Assembly: GCF_003129465.1 (NCBI RefSeq)
Contig: NZ_QFFF01000001.1
Location: forward strand, 806,001 to 870,000
DNA from: Sphingosinicella humi
Lineage (GTDB): Bacteria; Pseudomonadota; Alphaproteobacteria; Sphingomonadales; Sphingomonadaceae
DNA: 64,000 bases
Direction: 5' to 3'
The notes under the pieces are model-generated. The model did no database searches and was not told the origin of the DNA. It saw only the letters and a list, made by a program, of their open reading frames with translations. The stretch's first letter is position 1; every line of letters starts with the position of its first letter. Positions 5,591-14,703 of this stretch are shown here, piece by piece. The translations under genes were made by a program, and so were the position numbers.

Positions 5591-5974
5591 CTATAGCGGG
5601 ACGAGCGCGCCGCAGAACTGCTGCGCGCTTTCTGACCAGCTGAAACCTTTCCCATAATGTGCGCATCGGTTCCGGCATTTGCCGGCGGCCTCCACGATGG
5701 CCCGTTCAAGATCCTCGTGCATTGCGCCGACGTCCTCCCGCAGGATGTCCGCCGGGCCCGCAACGGGGAGGGCCGCGACTGGCGTTCCGCAGGCCAGCGC
5801 CTCGATCATCACCAACCCAAATGTGTCCGTCCGGCTGGGGAAGACCAGCACGTCTGCGGCCGCATAAGCCGAGGCCAGATCCGCGCCCGACAGCACGCCC
5901 GTGAAAGACACATCGGGATAGGCCCTTTTCAACCCCTGCAGGGCCGGGCCATCGCCAACGGATCGCGTCCTCAT
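5591..5974 (-). pseudogene. C-terminal remnant of a family 4 (GT-B) glycosyltransferase
   Basis: About 127 residues remain of a GT-B retaining glycosyltransferase: Val-Gly-Asp-Gly-Pro, then Tyr-Pro-Asp-Val-Ser-Phe-Thr-Gly, then the donor-site block Phe-Pro-Ser-Arg-Thr-Asp-Thr-Phe-Gly-Leu-Val and Glu-Ala-Leu-Ala-Cys-Gly. The family is normally about 350-400 residues, so the whole acceptor domain is missing. Just upstream the sequence turns into a GHKL ATPase gene in another frame, with no proper start. The remnant lies immediately upstream of the Pho box and phoU. In related bacteria such enzymes beside Pho genes make glycolipids under phosphate limitation; that link is inference. Confidence 0.75.
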
Positions 5975-6530
5975 CCCATTCCTGTCGCGTTTCTTTAATT
6001 ACTAGTATCGTCCCGCCGTCCTTGGGAGAATCCGCATTGTAGATCTTAGGAAACGATGAAACCGAACCTAGATTTACCGAAACTGTTTGGAACTCTTTGG
6101 TGCTATCTTTCTCGAATCTGGTCCAATCCACATCGAGTTTTGTGATAGATTTTCCGCCGCTGGAACGACTATAAAGTTCTAGTTGTTCGCCTAAAGTATC
6201 ACATGCAAAACGCCCGATCCCCTTGCTTCCGGCAAACTGTCCAGCTGGCTTGATTTTATCACGGTAATTGTCCGTGGAGGCGAGCGCTTTCTCAGAATAC
6301 GCCACAAAGAGCCACTTATCGCGAATGTCGTTAGCGGTCATTCCGCGTCCATTGTCGACTATTGCAATGCTTGATTCATCGGGGTCGAACTCAATGTCGA
6401 CCTTCGTTGCTCCGGCGTCGATCGAATTCTTCACAAGTTCAAAGATGGCCACGAACTCGTTCGTCACGAGATCGCGCCCGATGATGTCCTTGAGGTGGGT
6501 ACTGATTCGGAAGGATTCTGGCGTCGTCAT
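5970..6530 (-). pseudogene. Truncated GHKL ATPase (MORC/Hsp90-like), N-terminal part only
   Basis: From ATG 6530 the protein shows all early GHKL motifs: Glu-Leu-Val-Lys-Asn-Ser-Ile-Asp-Ala-Gly-Ala (N box), Asp-Asn-Gly-Arg-Gly-Met (G1) and Gly-Ser-Lys-Gly-Ile-Gly-Arg-Phe-Ala (G2). Homology stops after about 187 residues, where the frame runs into the antisense-like frame of the glycosyltransferase remnant and ends at 5706 after about 87 unrelated residues. The intact proteins are much longer. GHKL ATPases of this kind are known beside vsr, cytosine methyltransferases and Z1 proteins in restriction-modification loci. The gene is divergent from vsr and AT-rich compared with its surroundings. 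Confidence 0.78.
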
Positions 6531-6710
6531 TCGAAGGGCTTATCTCACTCTTGCTTGATAGCGAAACAATCGCCGCGAGGATGGCTGGTTGCTCGATTCT
6601 GGTCGCTCTGCGGCGCTTGGCTGGCTCCCCGCGCTTCCTCGACGCCTCCCCCTGGCAAAGTCCGCGACTACCACCATCTAGCTGTTCGTAGCATACATCT
6701 AGGAGGCAAG

Positions 6711-7163
6711 TTGGCGGACTTCCTTGAACCAGGCGAACGATCGCGGCGCATGGGGCGCATCAGGTCTCAGGACACAAGGCCCGAAATTATCCTGAGGCGA
6801 GCATTGCACGAGCTCGGCCTACGCTTTCGTCTCGGAGGCGCAGGGCTTCCCGGTCGCCCTGATATCGTACTGCCGCGCCATCGTGCCGTGGTTTTTGTTC
6901 ATGGCTGCTTTTGGCATCGTCATCGTGGTTGTAAAGTCGCGTCAACACCAAAGTCGAACACTGGCTTTTGGACGGCAAAGTTCGACCGGAATGTCGAGCG
7001 CGATGCGAAGGTCACCCGGGAGCTGGAAGCGCTGGGTTGGCGTGTCTTCGTTGCGTGGGAGTGCGAACTCACCGTCAAGTCACGGCTGGGCTTGACTGCT
7101 GCCGGGCTGGCCAGGCGGATCCGAGGCGAACCCGGTGCGCCCGAGGTCGCGAGTACCTTCTAG
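6711..7163 (+). CDS. vsr: Very short patch repair endonuclease
   Basis: Vsr nicks DNA at T:G mismatches that arise when 5-methylcytosine deaminates. The 150-residue product has the family signature Ser-Arg-Arg-Met-Gly-Arg-Ile-Arg-Ser-Gln-Asp-Thr-Arg-Pro-Glu, then Gly-Arg-Pro-Asp-Ile-Val-Leu-Pro and Val-Phe-Val-His-Gly-Cys-Phe-Trp-His with the zinc and catalytic residues, and Lys-Phe-Asp-Arg-Asn-Val-Glu-Arg-Asp. TTG 6711 is the likely start because AGGAGG lies four bases upstream and the length then matches the family. The methyltransferase that normally accompanies vsr is absent from the window. Confidence 0.88.
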   Translation: MADFLEPGERSRRMGRIRSQDTRPEIILRRALHELGLRFRLGGAGLPGRPDIVLPRHRAVVFVHGCFWHRHRGCKVASTPKSNTGFWTAKFDRNVERDAKVTRELEALGWRVFVAWECELTVKSRLGLTAAGLARRIRGEPGAPEVASTF

Positions 7164-7264: not shown

Positions 7265-7606
7265 CTATCTATGCGCCAGGATCTGGAGGACCGCCTCGGC
7301 ACCCTCATCAGATGAAACGGCTATATGAAGCGGAGTCCCTCCGCCAAGCTCATCATGGTGAGAGCGAAGGAAGTCTTCAGCTTGATCCTGACACCCATCA
7401 AACGCCTTGATGGCCGCCCTCCGCACCCGCGCCACACGCTCCCGCTGTTCGACAGCCTCCGCTGCGGCGGCCCTGAAACCCTTGAGGATATAGGCTCCGA
7501 GCAAGCCTATATCGCGGGTCTCCAGAACGTCACCGAGAGTCGGTGGTCGCGAGCGCGTCGCGAGCCACCGCTCAAGCTTCAGGAGTAGGTCGCCCTCACT
7601 CTCCAA
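7265..7606 (-). CDS. DUF2384 (MbcA/ParS/Xre antitoxin C-terminal domain) protein
   Basis: The final 50 residues match the DUF2384 toxin-binding fold: Ala-Ile-Lys-Ala-Phe, then Ala-Glu-Asp-Phe-Leu-Arg, Leu-Gly-Gly-Gly-Thr-Pro-Leu and Glu-Gly-Ala-Glu-Ala-Val-Leu. In known systems this domain sits in antitoxins paired with RES-type toxins. I start at TTG 7606, preceded by GGAGG with nine bases of spacing. The start lies inside the end of the upstream gene (11-base overlap), so the two are probably coupled. The first 60 residues are helical, with no clear Xre helix-turn-helix. No RES-like toxin is adjacent, so the partner must be one of the two upstream genes or be missing. Confidence 0.65.
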   Translation of the reverse strand: MESEGDLLLKLERWLATRSRPPTLGDVLETRDIGLLGAYILKGFRAAAAEAVEQRERVARVRRAAIKAFDGCQDQAEDFLRSHHDELGGGTPLHIAVSSDEGAEAVLQILAHR

Positions 7607-8219
7607 GGCGCACTTCCTCCCGGTGTTTCGCCCAGCTTTCGTCGATGATGGCGCGGGCCTCATCAGTGGCCAGCTTCGAGAACAGCGACCATCCGCTGGG
7701 CAAACAGGTGCGTCCCAGGAGCAGCCCGTGAAGGTGAGGCACGCCCGGGCGAGCCGCCCTACCCGGGAGGTGGAGGCAGAGCACGATCGGAGTTTGATAG
7801 GTGCGGGCCAGGCCCAAGAAATAGCTCCTGCCGATCTCCCAGACCTCGGCCAGCCGCAGAGGCGCCTCGATGAGGTCGGCTTCGGCGAATCGCACTGTGA
7901 CGTTCGTAACGATGTCGCGGATCGTGCCGAAGGACGCCTCGTCATAGGCCCTGCAGAGGGTCTGCGCGTCCATGAAGTGGTCTGGCGCTCCGGGTGGCAA
8001 CAGGACGTCGAAACGCGCGCAGGTCGGCCGGTCCCAAGGGGCAGTAGGATCTGCGGGCTTCGCGACAGGATAGAGCCGCCGGAAGACGGCCCTCTCGGCT
8101 GTCATCACCATTCCATCGGGGGCGGGATTTCGGACGACGCCGAAGCTGATCTCCGGATGCGCCCCTGTCACAGGAGCGTAGTCGCCATTCGGCATCGGGG
8201 CGTGCTTTTTGATCGACAT
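7596..8219 (-). CDS. Unrecognised 207-residue protein with an HxH motif
   Basis: This is the middle gene of a three-gene operon. It overlaps the upstream stop by one base (TGATG) and the downstream DUF2384 start by eleven. I do not recognise the family. Near the C-terminus a hydrophobic strand is followed by Pro-His-Leu-His-Gly-Leu-Leu-Leu-Gly-Arg (His162 and His164), a pattern seen in HUH nucleases. A second HUH motif with a catalytic Tyr is not obvious, so this is suggestive only. No signal peptide or membrane segment. Position before a DUF2384 protein would also fit a toxin. Confidence 0.6.
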   Translation of the reverse strand: MSIKKHAPMPNGDYAPVTGAHPEISFGVVRNPAPDGMVMTAERAVFRRLYPVAKPADPTAPWDRPTCARFDVLLPPGAPDHFMDAQTLCRAYDEASFGTIRDIVTNVTVRFAEADLIEAPLRLAEVWEIGRSYFLGLARTYQTPIVLCLHLPGRAARPGVPHLHGLLLGRTCLPSGWSLFSKLATDEARAIIDESWAKHREEVRLGE

Positions 8220-8743
8220 CAGAAGGCCTCCTCATACCGAGTGGCCCGGATCATCTTCGCGGCCGCCGCGTCGACGCCGTCGGCACGCTCCAATCGGTCG
8301 ACGAATGGTGAACAGAAGGACACTCGCGAACCGTCCGCATTGAGCTCTACGAATGGAGCCGGTCCGGGTGGAAGAAGCCAGTAGCCGTCTCCAGGCAGCC
8401 AGTAGAGAACCATGTCCTCCATGATGCGCGGGTCGCTGTCCACATGGACCAGGGCGGTAAAGGTCACCTCGTCCAAGATCTCCGGGATCGGATAGCGCCC
8501 CTGATGGGCGAGGATGATGTCTGCCCCCGTCTGGGTAGCAACGTCGAGCATCGCCTCGTTGAAGACCCCTTTGCCGCAGGGGGTTGTGGCGAGGATGAGC
8601 CTCTCCTGCTCCAGATAGATCGCCCCGGCCGGAAGCAGGTCTGGGGCGACCGAGGCCGCGCCCCCTCCCGCCGCCGCGTGGAGAAACTTGATCATTCGAC
8701 GAGCAGTGCGGGAGGTGCCGTCACCCAAAACAACGATATTCAT
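8219..8743 (-). CDS. Unrecognised 174-residue protein, first gene of the island operon
   Basis: The N-terminus (Met-Asn-Ile-Val-Val-Leu-Gly-Asp-Gly-Thr-Ser-Arg-Thr) is a hydrophobic strand followed by a Gly-rich turn, suggesting a Rossmann- or nucleotide-binding-like start, but there is no proper Walker A motif. A later block contains Asp-Ile-Ile-Leu-Ala-His-Gln-Gly-Arg and Val-His-Val-Asp-Ser-Asp-Pro. I do not recognise the family. It begins the operon 8743-7265 and is divergent from the relaxase-like gene at 9188, with 444 bases between them. Confidence 0.6.
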   Translation of the reverse strand: MNIVVLGDGTSRTARRMIKFLHAAAGGGAASVAPDLLPAGAIYLEQERLILATTPCGKGVFNEAMLDVATQTGADIILAHQGRYPIPEILDEVTFTALVHVDSDPRIMEDMVLYWLPGDGYWLLPPGPAPFVELNADGSRVSFCSPFVDRLERADGVDAAAAKMIRATRYEEAF

Positions 8744-9047
8744 AAGGAGGAACTCCGATAGCGTGAGGTCCGGCTCGTGCCGGCCTAAGCCCCCCTTCGA
8801 ATTTCATCTCAACGGGAAGCTCGCTTCTCCCCTTCCGTCCCTTGTTCTTGGCCCGCCGAAGCGCCGGCCGGCGGCGCGCTACACCCGCTGCCGGGTGGGC
8901 CAGGAGGCGCCGGCAGAGTCCGCGGCACCGGTGGGCGACAGCGTCAAGTGGCAACGCGAAGATGGCGGGAACGCTCATGGTATAGGCCGATGGCGTTGGG
9001 GCCTCCCTTCCAGGGCGCGACGCCCTGCCGCGCAGCGGGGGCGGGAT

Positions 9048-9187: not shown

Positions 9188-10912
9188 ATGAAAAGTGCTG
9201 TGTCGGGTGTGGCGGGAGCTGTCCGGATCAACCAGCTCACGATGGCTGGGCTCACCCGCACTGAGCTTCACGGGAAACGCCTCGATAAGACCAGCAAGGC
9301 TCGCGTCATCAACGATGAGCCTCCCATCTCGTCGACCGGCCTGGATCTTAATGATCTTTATCAGGCTCATGTGGCGGACGCCTTCGTGCCGAGCGCGAAA
9401 TCGAAGGCAATGCACATGATTGTTCAGTTCCCGACCGATCTGGTTGACGGGAGCGATGCCGACGGGATGCTGTATCACGCCAGCGCATTCGCGAGGCGGG
9501 TGTTCGGCGACAATGCGATCTTCGCGGACCGGGTCGACCGGGACGAAAAGAGCCAGCACGTTGTCGACCTGCTCATTGCGCCGAAATATCTCAAGGCAAC
9601 CAAGCACACAGCCAAGGTGGCGGTCTCGATGACAAGAGACCTCAAGGCTCTCGCCAAGAAGTATGGCGAACCGCCAATTCCCCAGGGAACGGGTCGAGCC
9701 CTTCAGACAGCATGGTTCGAATATCTGCGTGACGAAATGGGCCTAGAAGATGTGGAACGCGGGTCCCCCAAGGAATTCGCGGGTCCGGACCACAAGTCGG
9801 CCGAGGAACTCCGGATGGAAGAACTCGACGAGCTGATTGCGAGTGCCGAGAGGGCACGCGAAGAAGCTCGAAAAGTCGGTTACGAGGAAGGTCTCGCGGC
9901 GGCCGAACAGAATCGCGCCGCGCGCGAGCGGCTTCTGGATGATAGGGAAAAGCGGATCACTATCCGGGAAGCCGATCAGATTTCGGAACGGCTTCAGATC
10001 GCCTCGGCGAAGGAAGACTTGCAGCGAGAAGCCCACGACACCCGCCGCGATGCAGATGCCTATGCGAGGGTCACGCGCGAGAATGCGGAGACCGACGCAA
10101 AGGCGGAGCGTGACAAGGCGGAGGCGGAAGCGAACGAGATCAAGGCGGCCGCCGAGCACACCGCCAGAGAGAAGGGCTTGGCCGACGCCCGGGCGTTGAT
10201 CCAAAGCGATCAGGAGGCTGCGGCGGAAGCGAGGGCAGCAGCCAAGAAGGATCGCGACGCTGCGGCAGCGGCGTTGTCGGCGGCGAACGCTGAACGGGCC
10301 CGAGCGAAGGCGGAAGGTCTCGCTGAGGCAGAGGAGGAGCTGGCATCCCGGAAAGCTTCTTTTGAAGCTCGCCAAGCGGAAATCGAGGCCCTCGCGGCGA
10401 AAGTGGCGGACGAGGGCGCCAAGGCAAGGGCGTTCAAGGCTGGCCTTGAAGCATGGGCGGCCGGCGACATCGTATTGGCGGGACGGACGAAGGATGGCGG
10501 GCCGGGGTTCAAATGGCGGGATGAAGCGACCAAACAGCGTGTCAAACCCCTGATTCTGCCTGCGTGGACCGAAGTATGGGAAGCGGTCGTCGCCCTTGCT
10601 CAGCGAGCAGCCGCGAAAGCGGCGGAGATCGAAAGCGAGGCCAAGCAGAAGGCAAGCGACCTCGTGGACACCGTGACCGAGGCGGTGAAGACCTTCATGG
10701 CACGCTACAACGCCGTCCCTGAAGTGGAGCGGGATACCCTCAGAAGAACACCGGCGTTCGAAGCAGTGGCGACTCTAGCGAACGACCCTGCCGTGCGAGC
10801 CACCGTAGCGGACTCAGAGGACAACGAGGTGGACCTGCTGCTTCAGGCGGCGGCTGCCGGGTTGGTGAAGGGAGTGAAGGTTTCTGGTTCAGGCGCTGTC
10901 CGGAAGCTATGA
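9188..10912 (+). CDS. Relaxase-like (MobV/Pre-related) coiled-coil protein with an altered HUH motif
   Basis: The 574-residue protein starts at ATG 9188 after GGGGAGGG. Residues about 75-180 resemble the MobV/Pre relaxase core, with Phe-Ala-Arg-Arg-Val-Phe-Gly-Asp-Asn and then Asp-Arg-Val-Asp-Arg-Asp-Glu-Lys-Ser-Gln-His-Val-Val (114-126). True MobV proteins have His-x-Asp-Glu-x-x-Pro-His-x-His here, so the first His and the His-x-His pair are not conserved. From about 200 to 450 it is a long Ala/Glu/Arg/Lys-rich coiled coil. It may be a mobilisation or partner protein, or a relaxase that lost catalysis. The coding frame is clear; the function is uncertain. Confidence 0.65.
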   Translation: MKSAVSGVAGAVRINQLTMAGLTRTELHGKRLDKTSKARVINDEPPISSTGLDLNDLYQAHVADAFVPSAKSKAMHMIVQFPTDLVDGSDADGMLYHASAFARRVFGDNAIFADRVDRDEKSQHVVDLLIAPKYLKATKHTAKVAVSMTRDLKALAKKYGEPPIPQGTGRALQTAWFEYLRDEMGLEDVERGSPKEFAGPDHKSAEELRMEELDELIASAERAREEARKVGYEEGLAAAEQNRAARERLLDDREKRITIREADQISERLQIASAKEDLQREAHDTRRDADAYARVTRENAETDAKAERDKAEAEANEIKAAAEHTAREKGLADARALIQSDQEAAAEARAAAKKDRDAAAAALSAANAERARAKAEGLAEAEEELASRKASFEARQAEIEALAAKVADEGAKARAFKAGLEAWAAGDIVLAGRTKDGGPGFKWRDEATKQRVKPLILPAWTEVWEAVVALAQRAAAKAAEIESEAKQKASDLVDTVTEAVKTFMARYNAVPEVERDTLRRTPAFEAVATLANDPAVRATVADSEDNEVDLLLQAAAAGLVKGVKVSGSGAVRKL

Positions 10913-10964: not shown

Positions 10965-12923
10965 TCACTCCGCAGCTCCCGTCAAATTCTGCCCGCGGCG
11001 CGGACGAGGCCGCCGCATGGCAGCGGGAAGCAGGTGAATCTCCCGGTAATCCGGGAGATGGTCTGTGACGATGGGAATCTGGTCGACCAGCGCCTTGAGC
11101 TTGGCGAGACGGGTCGCCTTGGAATAGCGGGTGGATCCCTCGCCCTTGCCCTTGTGCCCGAGCGCGTCGTTACGGTGCTCCTCGAACACCTCGAGCTCCT
11201 TCAGCTCCGTGCTGACGGTATGACGAGCCGCATGGAGCGCTTGACCGCGCTGAAGCGTCTTCAAATGGGGAGCGACGTAGATCCACCAGAGCTTGTAAAA
11301 GGTATCACCCTTCTTGGCGCCGGCCCGTTCGGAAACCAGCTCCGGGAAAAGGGCGTCGTGGCCGGCCGTCCTTATCGCCTCGAAATACTCGACAAAGCCG
11401 AGGCGGACCAGCTCGTCCGAGATCGCGATGAGGCGTACCGCTGATCGGTTCTTGACGCGGCCGGCGGAGGTGAAGTCGATGCTGATGAACCAGATGCCGT
11501 CGACGCAGTCGACGTCGGTCACGAGGAGCTTGCAAACCTCTTCCCTGCGCATGCCCGTATACCACACGAGCAGGAGCACGAAGAACAGGCTGTCGTGATA
11601 GATCTGGTTTCCGGGTTCGAGGCGCTCCTCGACCGATCGGCAGCCGGTCCAGGGCGGGAGATTGAAGAGCTCCCGTCCCTGCTCCAGTGTGTAGGCCGCG
11701 CGGGCGTTCCGCTCGTCCTTGCGGTCCGGGACCATGAATTTTCCGAAGTCGACTTCGGCAACCGATGGGACGTGGTCGCGCAGGAAGCTGTGAATCTGGG
11801 CGAGCTTGCGGAAGTGTTTGTTGGTCGTTCCCGATAGCAAGCCGATCGCATCGGCCTCATAGTCGCCAAGTTCGATCTTCTCCTCGGCGTCCCGGCAGAT
11901 TTCCTTGAGCGTCGTCTCCGGTGACCGGTGCCACGGCGCCTTCCCGCAAGTGACCGGAAGCCGGTCGAACCACTGATCGAGTACCTTCAGGTCCCCAAAG
12001 GTGAGCGACCACAACGGTCGGCCATCCATTGACCGCTCGAGCAACGCCGCCGCCCATCGTATCTGACGGAGCGTCTGCTCGCCGACCTGCTCCTCCTTGC
12101 GCTTGCCGGTCTTGCGATGCTCGAACATCTTCGGCGTTGCAGCGATCAGCCGTTCGGCCGCCTCGGTGGCGGTGACATGGAGCCACTCGGAGGGAACGGA
12201 TGCTTCCGACCCGGCGGTCTCGTCCTGATCGTTAGCAATCCTGGCTGGCACGGAGGGGCCCGGCACAGCCCCCGTGGGGTAGGACCGCACCGCCAATTGA
12301 CGCTGTAGCGCCTCTTCGGCGTCGATATGGGCGTCCCGGAAGGCGGGATAGAGAGCGAGCTCGACCGCCCATCGCAGCATGTCGGTCGGCGCGCGACCGT
12401 GCTGACGCAACAACCCGTCGATATAGTCGGGCCGGAAGCGGGTGACGCCCTGTTCTTCGCGGAGCTTGATGATCGTCCTCAGATCCTCGATCCGCTGTGG
12501 ATCCCACCCTGCCTCCTCGGCGAGGCGCTGCTCCTCCGCCGGCAGCAGCGAGAGGTGGCCCCCGTGATCGGCCAGGCGCTGGTAATAATGGGCGAACGCC
12601 AGGTTCGAGACGCTGTGGAGCGGAGCATAGTAGGGCGTCGAGCGCTGATCCTGGCATAGCTCCGCCAACAACTGCTCGTAAGCCGTCTTTGCAATGGCCT
12701 GCAGTTCGGCCTCCGTCAGGCCTCCATCGGCTGCGACGCGCTGGTTCAACATCTCGATTACATCCCCCGACGCGGTCGTGAGAGCCGCCCCCCTGCGGCT
12801 CGCTTCAATCCGGTCGAACGTCTTCAAAGATAAGCGAATATCGAGCTTTCGGCCACCGGAGATTGGGTGGATTCGCCGCCACCAGAAAATATGGCCGCGT
12901 CGGTAGGTGTGAAGGGACGCCAT
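10965..12923 (-). CDS. Tyrosine recombinase (site-specific integrase)
   Basis: The C-terminal catalytic domain has the tyrosine recombinase residues: Arg in Thr-Gly-Met-Arg-Arg-Glu-Glu, the His-x-x-Arg box in His-Ala-Ala-Arg-His-Thr, and the nucleophile in Thr-Arg-Tyr-Ser-Lys. At 652 residues it is long because it carries a large N-terminal region before the core-binding domain, as in many island integrases. I use ATG 12923, preceded by AAAGG; an in-frame ATG at 12965 lacks such a site. The gene starts about 130 bases from the 3' end of tRNA-Gln and reads away from it, which marks it as the integrase of this island. Confidence 0.9.
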   Translation of the reverse strand: MASLHTYRRGHIFWWRRIHPISGGRKLDIRLSLKTFDRIEASRRGAALTTASGDVIEMLNQRVAADGGLTEAELQAIAKTAYEQLLAELCQDQRSTPYYAPLHSVSNLAFAHYYQRLADHGGHLSLLPAEEQRLAEEAGWDPQRIEDLRTIIKLREEQGVTRFRPDYIDGLLRQHGRAPTDMLRWAVELALYPAFRDAHIDAEEALQRQLAVRSYPTGAVPGPSVPARIANDQDETAGSEASVPSEWLHVTATEAAERLIAATPKMFEHRKTGKRKEEQVGEQTLRQIRWAAALLERSMDGRPLWSLTFGDLKVLDQWFDRLPVTCGKAPWHRSPETTLKEICRDAEEKIELGDYEADAIGLLSGTTNKHFRKLAQIHSFLRDHVPSVAEVDFGKFMVPDRKDERNARAAYTLEQGRELFNLPPWTGCRSVEERLEPGNQIYHDSLFFVLLLVWYTGMRREEVCKLLVTDVDCVDGIWFISIDFTSAGRVKNRSAVRLIAISDELVRLGFVEYFEAIRTAGHDALFPELVSERAGAKKGDTFYKLWWIYVAPHLKTLQRGQALHAARHTVSTELKELEVFEEHRNDALGHKGKGEGSTRYSKATRLAKLKALVDQIPIVTDHLPDYREIHLLPAAMRRPRPRRGQNLTGAAE

Positions 12924-12983
12924 GGCTGACCTTTCGGGCCAGCACATTGGCACACTCTGATGCACAATCAGGGGATGCCTCAG

Positions 12984-13032: not shown

Positions 13033-13068
13033 TTGGCTGGGTCGGCGGATGTGCTTGGCTGGGGCGGC
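13033..13068. repeat. Tandem near-copy of the tRNA-Gln 3' end
   Basis: TTGGCTGGGTCGGC (13033-13046) repeats the tRNA terminus TTGGCTGGGGCGGC (13055-13068) with one mismatch, 22 bases away. The repeat contains the CCA end and acceptor-stem bases in reverse orientation. It may be a leftover of an attachment core or an integrase core-type site. Confidence 0.5.
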
Positions 13069-13130
13069 AGGATTCGAACCTGCGAATGGCGGCACCAAAA
13101 GCCGCTGCCTTACCACTTGGCGACGCCCCA
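13056..13130 (-). tRNA. tRNA-Gln (anticodon TTG)
   Basis: Read on the minus strand, the sequence begins TGGGGCGTCGCCAAG and ends CCCCAGCCA. The acceptor stem pairs fully, the T-loop has GGTTCGAATCC, and the anticodon stem GCGGC/GCCGC encloses the loop TTTTGGT, giving anticodon TTG for Gln. The CCA end is encoded. Its 3' end forms the right boundary of the island. Confidence 0.95.
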
Positions 13131-13188
13131 GCAGACGGCGGCCTTATAGCCGTCCTTGCCGAGAGGGAAAGCCCTCACGGCGTCCCGA

Positions 13189-14703
13189 TCAGACCGAAAA
13201 ATCAATCCCCTGGGCGAGCGGCAGATCGCGGCCGTAATTGATCGTGTTGGTAGACCTGCGCATATAGGCGCGCCAGCTATCGGAGCCGCTCTCGCGCCCG
13301 CCGCCGGTCTCCTTCTCGCCGCCGAACGCGCCGCCGATCTCGGCGCCCGACGGCCCGATATTGACGTTGACGATACCGCAATCGGAGCCCGCGGCGGAGA
13401 GGAAGCGCTCGGCTTCCCTGAGATCGGTGGTGAAGATCGAGGAGGCGAGGCCTTGCGGCACGGCGTTATGGAGGGCGATCGCCTCGTCGAAGGTGCGGTA
13501 GCGCATGACGTAGAGAATGGGCGCGAAGGTCTCTCTCTGCGTGACGGGCGTCTGACCCGGCATCTCGGCGATAGCCGGACGCACATACCAGGCGTCGGGA
13601 AAGCTGTCGGCCAGAAGCCGCTCGCCGCCCTGGACCACGCCGCCCTCGGAACGGGCGTCGTTCAGCGCTGTCTGCATGGCGTCGTAGGCGGCCTCGTCGA
13701 TCAAGGGTCCGACGAGGGCAAGGCCTTCCAGCGGATTGCCGACCTCGACCGAAGACCAGACGCGCTTGAGGCGCGGCACGAGGCGATCGTAGACATCCTC
13801 ATGAACGAACAGCCGGCGGAGCGACGTGCAGCGCTGGCCGGCGGTGCCGACGGCGGCGAAGGTGATCGCGCGTTCGGCGAGGTCGAGGTCGGCCGAGGGC
13901 GTGACGATCATGCCGTTGTTGCCGCCCAGCTCGAGCAGCGAGCGGCCGAAGCGGGCGGCGATGCGCGGCCCGACCTCGCAGCCCATGCGGGTGGAGCCGG
14001 TGGCGGAGACAAGCGCGACGCGGCGATCGTCGACCAGCGCCTCGCCGGTAGCGCGTCCACCCTGGACCAGCACCGACAGGTTCGCGGGCGCATCGCCGAA
14101 ACGCTCGACGGCGCGCTCGAACAGCGTCTGAACGGCAAGCGCCGACAGCGGCGTCTTTTCCGAAGGCTTCCAGACGACACTGTCGCCGCAGACGAAAGCG
14201 AGGCAGGCGTTCCACGCCCAGACAGCGACCGGAAAATTGAAGGCGGAGATGACGCCGACGACACCGAGAGGATGCCAGGTCTCCATCATGCGATGGTCGG
14301 GCCGCTCAGTGGTGATGGTGAGACCGTGAAGCTGCCGCGACAGGCCAACGGCGAAGTCGCAGATGTCGATCATCTCCTGGACCTCGCCGAGCGCCTCGGG
14401 GAGGATCTTCCCCGCCTCCAGACTCACCAGGCGCGCCAGAGGCTCCTTGGCCTCCCGCAAGACCTCGCCGAACAGGCGAACCAGCTCGCCGCGCCGGGGC
14501 GCCGGGACGGTGCGCCAGGCGAGGAAGCCCTCATAGGCACGGCCGATCGCCGCCTCGACCTCGTCGGGGCTTGCGGCCGCGACGCGACCGATAACCGTGC
14601 CGTCGATAGGCGAGCGCGATGCGAGGTCGCCCGACGCAATCGCCTCCTGCGGCAGCCCGAGCCTCTCGAAAAGCGTCCGGGCTTCCTGCACGGACTCGAA
14701 CAT
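13189..14703 (-). CDS. Aldehyde dehydrogenase, alpha-aminoadipic semialdehyde type (ALDH7)
   Basis: This 504-residue NAD-dependent dehydrogenase has Phe-Asn-Phe-Pro-Val-Ala, Trp-Lys-Pro-Ser-Glu-Lys-Thr, Leu-Glu-Leu-Gly-Gly-Asn-Asn and the catalytic Cys in Gly-Gln-Arg-Cys-Thr-Ser. Gly-Gly-Asn-Asn in place of the usual Gly-Gly-Lys is typical of the ALDH7 group, which oxidises 2-aminoadipate 6-semialdehyde in lysine breakdown. Its ATG (14703-14701) shares one base with the stop of the aminotransferase gene (TGATG), so translation is coupled. Longer upstream readings run into that gene and lack homology. Confidence 0.85.
   Translation of the reverse strand: MFESVQEARTLFERLGLPQEAIASGDLASRSPIDGTVIGRVAAASPDEVEAAIGRAYEGFLAWRTVPAPRRGELVRLFGEVLREAKEPLARLVSLEAGKILPEALGEVQEMIDICDFAVGLSRQLHGLTITTERPDHRMMETWHPLGVVGVISAFNFPVAVWAWNACLAFVCGDSVVWKPSEKTPLSALAVQTLFERAVERFGDAPANLSVLVQGGRATGEALVDDRRVALVSATGSTRMGCEVGPRIAARFGRSLLELGGNNGMIVTPSADLDLAERAITFAAVGTAGQRCTSLRRLFVHEDVYDRLVPRLKRVWSSVEVGNPLEGLALVGPLIDEAAYDAMQTALNDARSEGGVVQGGERLLADSFPDAWYVRPAIAEMPGQTPVTQRETFAPILYVMRYRTFDEAIALHNAVPQGLASSIFTTDLREAERFLSAAGSDCGIVNVNIGPSGAEIGGAFGGEKETGGGRESGSDSWRAYMRRSTNTINYGRDLPLAQGIDFSV

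Follow-up and report, generated by a model that had tools for sequence, protein, structure and literature searches.

A stand-alone HUH domain of the MobA/MobL type that seems to lack the relaxase tyrosine recurs with a regular partner gene mainly in sphingomonads

The window analyzed here, a stretch of 64,000 nucleotides from Sphingosinicella humi (contig NZ_QFFF01000001.1, positions 806,001 to 870,000), contains a genomic island with a three-gene operon, A-B-C. By sequence profile and fold, the product of the middle gene, B, is a MobA/MobL-type HUH domain which keeps the metal-binding histidines, while the nucleophilic tyrosine of relaxases appears to be absent from the window protein and from most of its aligned relatives. 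The cassette has so far been found mainly in sphingomonads, often directly behind a complete relaxase gene. We tentatively interpret A-B(-C) as an accessory cassette of mobilizable elements, which might tune transfer as a non-cutting component of the relaxosome. The operon comprises the following features:

8219..8743, minus strand: gene A, 174 amino acids (aa), family not assigned, regular partner of B
7596..8219, minus strand: gene B, 207 aa, HUH domain of the MobA/MobL type standing alone, relaxase tyrosine apparently missing
7728..7772, minus strand: HUH metal triad of B (His150, His162, His164), codons 150-164
7265..7606, minus strand: gene C, 113 aa, initiated at TTG, with a DUF2384 domain (Xre/MbcA/ParS C-terminal) and no detected helix-turn-helix (HTH)

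Placement of B in the MobA/MobL relaxase superfamily follows from profile comparison with PDB sequences, in which its histidines align with those of NES and MobA, and from the fold. A His162-Leu-His164 element, pointed out in a first-pass annotation of this operon, is indeed present and, together with His150, is unchanged in all 26 aligned members of the B family. Position 48 is likewise Arg or Lys in every member. The relatives are 19-50% identical to the window protein, and none of the 33 matched B stretches contains an inner stop. Compared with the MobA/MobL relaxases (MobA of R1162 and NES of Staphylococcus aureus; MOBQ), B shows the same order of its HUH triad histidines but consists of only ~207 aa, lacks the C-terminal part and is paired with A. 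MobM is not among the PDB sequence matches of B, which are NES and MobA, and this sets B apart from the MobV/Pre (MobM) relaxases. In Pfam, PADLOC, PHROGs and NCBIfam, B has no match at E 1 or better, and the plasmid-borne copies among its matches are annotated as 'hypothetical protein'.

A further departure from the relaxases concerns the nucleophile. In the likely nucleophile column, the 26 members have Phe (11), Tyr (4), Ala (4), Trp (3) and Leu, Thr or His (4), and the next column is devoid of Tyr. The corresponding residue of the window protein is Ala44 or Val45. Thus, most members, including that of the window, seem incapable of forming a phosphotyrosine link. Phe at the place of Tyr recalls the usual laboratory mutant of a dead relaxase; the NES structure 4ht4 is reportedly a Tyr25Phe mutant. 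The first-pass annotation regarded strong matches to plasmid families as contrary to its proposal of a new system, and such a match is found in part: B falls into the MobA/MobL superfamily, but seemingly without the defining tyrosine. The apparent loss of the tyrosine could also be expected of a decaying, functionless relaxase remnant, and broken copies of B exist (in two frames at L065, disrupted at L067, short at L058), as does a truncated-looking gene (5706-6530) on the left side of the island. However, the metal triad and Arg/Lys48 are retained throughout this divergent family, the matched stretches are free of inner stops and the pairing with A is regular, making such decay very improbable.

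The recurrence of the cassette was surveyed in 31 loci including the window, with ~5 kb inspected on each side; neighboring genes were chosen by a length and GC rule, so that wrong frames may be included. An A-family gene is located directly upstream of B in 26 loci, and one of the remaining five, L045, has a sub-threshold A match (0.024). At many loci the two genes overlap or abut, and their recurrence is more than expected by chance. Eight loci (L043, L047, L048, L049, L052, L056, L058 and L060) carry two or three A-family genes per B, either flanking it or arranged in tandem upstream of it, and these multiple copies may correspond to a hetero-oligomer. A second A-B pair is present in the same genome (L037, 4261-5561; C1, ~2434.1-2435.4 kb), with an HTH-type DUF2384 gene (984-1403) ~3 kb upstream on the same strand and no RES gene.

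The third position is variable. Within 200 bp downstream of B and on its strand, a DUF2384 gene is present in five of the 31 loci (the window, L031, L032, L033 and L053), and the complete A-B-DUF2384 order is found in four, so that the trio, whose recurrence the first-pass annotation proposed to check, is present at L032, L033 and L053 besides the window. At L033 (identical to L063) and L053, C is followed by a second DUF2384 gene with an HTH, that of L053 scoring just below the HTH cut-off; the lone DUF2384 gene of L032 has an HTH too. In L035, L036, L055, L057 and L058, the third place is taken by another family, which gave no significant Pfam match in the three of these loci that were scanned. 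Its members are ~165 aa long (L035, 5498-6025; L057, 5405-5908; L058, 5411-5914; L069, 6408-6896), and the third gene of L053 (4528-4983), which has DUF2384 at its end, is likewise matched by the hidden Markov model (HMM) of this family. On plasmid pLA5, A, B, the third-place family and a DUF2384 gene stand in a row. This variety indicates that C is one of several plug-in third genes, and the low frequency of DUF2384 directly behind B that A-B is a unit of its own rather than a toxin needing C.

When the window protein alone served as the query, genome contigs yielded no loci; with the family alignment four were recovered, of which three represent named copies of genomes in the existing set, and among the four the complete A-B-DUF2384 order occurs in Altericroceibacterium endophyticum and Sphingomonas sp. 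ID1715. A class-wide search with the B profile, in which no more than eight candidates per genome were scored and misses are possible, matched at least 18 of 385 genomes, including that of S. humi. Outside the latter, 19 of at least 27 matches fall in relaxase-like frames of more than 450 aa and eight in shorter frames. Plasmid matches in Shinella (H5) and Rhizorhabdus (H13) were rejected as B genes, since they too lie in long relaxase-like frames. No relatives were found in viral contigs with three B-family alignments and one A-family alignment.

In 11 of the 31 loci, a relaxase gene is positioned directly upstream of the cassette on the same strand, MobA/MobL-like in seven cases and VirD2/TraI-like in four. 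Of 93 neighbor proteins, three, including that of L034, have matches to Pfam Relaxase, LPD7 and TraI_middle; at L034, L036, L041 and L051, the relaxase places are marked by Pfam Relaxase. At L060 a relaxase-like gene is found downstream, and a MobV-like gene is near the cassette in the window and in L053. The 13 genomes checked contain 0-4 matches per relaxase family, some of which are B itself; because these genomes were picked for carrying B, the counts provide context rather than an unbiased test.

Relaxases are usually viewed as cutters. In the accessory-cassette interpretation, metal-bound B would still bind the hairpin of the origin of transfer (oriT), a single strand undergoing transfer or the active relaxase, without being able to nick and carry DNA. 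Together with A, it would then constitute a non-cutting relaxosome component helping or restraining the active relaxase. C could serve as a DUF2384 adaptor or regulator, with operator binding in some relatives possibly supplied by the HTH-bearing DUF2384 gene, and the active partner in this island might be the neighboring MobV-like protein. If true, horizontal gene transfer would have a natural brake, helper or decoy in this family, which keeps the metal site, mostly without the nucleophile, and is placed directly behind relaxases of two families; orphan DUF2384 proteins would gain a directly testable role.

A number of observations weigh against this interpretation. The alignment register at the nucleophile helix has an uncertainty of 1-2 residues, which joint alignment with neighboring relaxases does not remove. 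The window protein has Tyr50 a few residues past the nucleophile place, shared only with L031. In four of the 26 members, the likely nucleophile column is occupied by Tyr, and these might still be active; one of the Tyr-bearing proteins, L059, reaches the Pfam MobA_MobL cut-off, suggesting that some B members may be working relaxases. The structure model of B has a mean pLDDT of only 49.9. The MobA/MobL-like relaxase of L045 was called by a custom HMM alone and lacks the third His, and 17 of the 31 loci have none of these relaxases within the inspected flanks, implying that A-B also travels alone. Finally, A-B is in places found beside defense genes. Such neighbors would fit an anti-plasmid or anti-conjugation defense, in which B acts as a relaxase decoy or as a sensor of incoming single strands or foreign relaxases and A, perhaps PD-(D/E)XK-like, as the effector; we regard this scenario as unlikely. 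A possible but doubtful extension is an undescribed class of conjugation control, in which relaxosomes or single strands entering the cell would be recognized by the non-cutting HUH domain together with A, and transfer or a toxic response would be switched via modular third genes (DUF2384 or other).

For A, Pfam, PADLOC and PHROGs gave no family match with an E value of 1 or lower, and its single NCBIfam match (0.22) was judged to be due to chance. Sequence comparison with PDB gave nothing significant, the best match being ribosomal eS12 (0.057). Foldseek and VIA favor PD-(D/E)XK nuclease folds, but the structure model is weak (pLDDT 55.4), the scores may reflect a common arrangement only, and no conserved columns corresponding to a D-(D/E)-K catalytic triad are seen in the 21-row alignment of A. 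We consider the modeled PD-(D/E)XK fold as a lead. The first-pass annotation described a Gly-rich, nucleotide-like start of A; this feature is not conserved across the A family, and A was rejected as a nucleotide-binding protein.

C matches PF09722 at 2.3e-6, above the gathering score, in agreement with the clear DUF2384 domain noted earlier. As in the Xre/MbcA/ParS-RES systems, this is a toxin-binding domain. Unlike in those systems, C is the last of three genes, no HTH was found in it (no PF20432 match), and the genome, which has three DUF2384 matches, has no RES match at all, extending the earlier remark that neither upstream protein looks like RES. RES is found somewhere in 16 of 22 other genomes with a B match (4 of 5 and 12 of 17 in two sets), and among these it lies close behind the operon in L053 only. 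There, the match covers only positions 30-137 of 157 and belongs to an open reading frame (ORF) on the same strand, after two DUF2384 genes, ~0.55 kb from the operon and beside apparent insertion sequence fragments (by eye). A further RES match, on contig 3 of genome G210, precedes the A genes of L060 by ~1.6 kb. RES was rejected as the partner of the operon, and only the L053 fragment gives a close indication of a RES system.

The first-pass annotation raised the possibility of a new toxin-antitoxin or defense type. A toxin-antitoxin system, in which A and/or B would be toxic, for example as a metal-dependent DNA-binding protein, and C would neutralize them through DUF2384, is consistent with the overlapping operon, the DUF2384 domain, the HTH-bearing DUF2384 genes of L032, L063 and (just below the cut-off) L053, and the L053 RES-match ORF. 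By contrast, no DUF2384 gene lies directly behind A-B in 26 of the 31 loci, C is last rather than first in the operon, and the only RES match close behind the operon is partial and ~0.55 kb away, with none in the genome of S. humi. We therefore consider it improbable, although the operon, DUF2384 and the lack of RES noted in that annotation hold. Xre-RES systems have been described (PMC2701414, PMC12204516). In the parts of the open-access (PMC) literature covered, neither the cassette nor a tyrosine-poor stand-alone family with a partner is described. The HUH fold and DUF2384 themselves are known.

The layout reported previously is exact in coordinates, strand and overlaps, and the reading as one operon was correct. 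The A stop and B start have one base in common (TGATG), and B and C overlap by 11 bases. Shine-Dalgarno-like stretches precede all three starts: GGAG 9 bases 5' of A, GAGGAGG 7 bases 5' of B and GGGAGGAAG 6 bases 5' of the TTG of C. GC content at third codon positions is 0.75 in A, 0.77 in B and 0.64 in C versus 0.85-0.89 in three core genes, indicating a good codon signal for A and B and a weak one for C. A scan for promoters and terminators revealed no promoter-like site, and terminators were at chance level.

The right part of the island contains three further features:

9188..10912, plus strand: divergent mobilization gene, MobV/Pre-like by motif (by eye) and one annotated relative
10965..12965, minus strand: tyrosine recombinase (integrase) of the island, PF00589 at 5.4e-9
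13056..13130, minus strand: tRNA-Gln at the right island end, likely the attachment site

The mobilization ORF opens at 8948, with a likely start at 9188. Its family name is tentative, since no Pfam match exceeds the threshold, and its HUH-like motif looks degenerate by eye (DRDEKSQHVVDLL). Relatives occur in 32 plasmid records, including plasmids of Acetobacter, Paracoccus, Bartonella and others; among the 20 matches listed, 16 are hypothetical, three are not annotated and one is a 'plasmid recombination protein'. No direct repeat or second copy of the tRNA-Gln end was found as an attachment site. GC content is 0.615 in the island versus 0.663 in the whole window, and in 18 kb around the same tRNA in five relatives from the genus, window sequence left of the tRNA is absent except for a 34-bp match inside the integrase gene. 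On the left, a lone Vsr endonuclease gene (6495-7163) lies beside the GHKL ATPase gene (5706-6530, GC 0.49), which appears truncated and continues into the remnant of a glycosyltransferase gene; here the island probably has its left end, in a damaged state. On the other side (window 13056-14702), an aldehyde dehydrogenase gene is located between tRNA-Gln and a branched-chain aminotransferase gene, and the latter two are nearly adjacent in several relatives from the genus.
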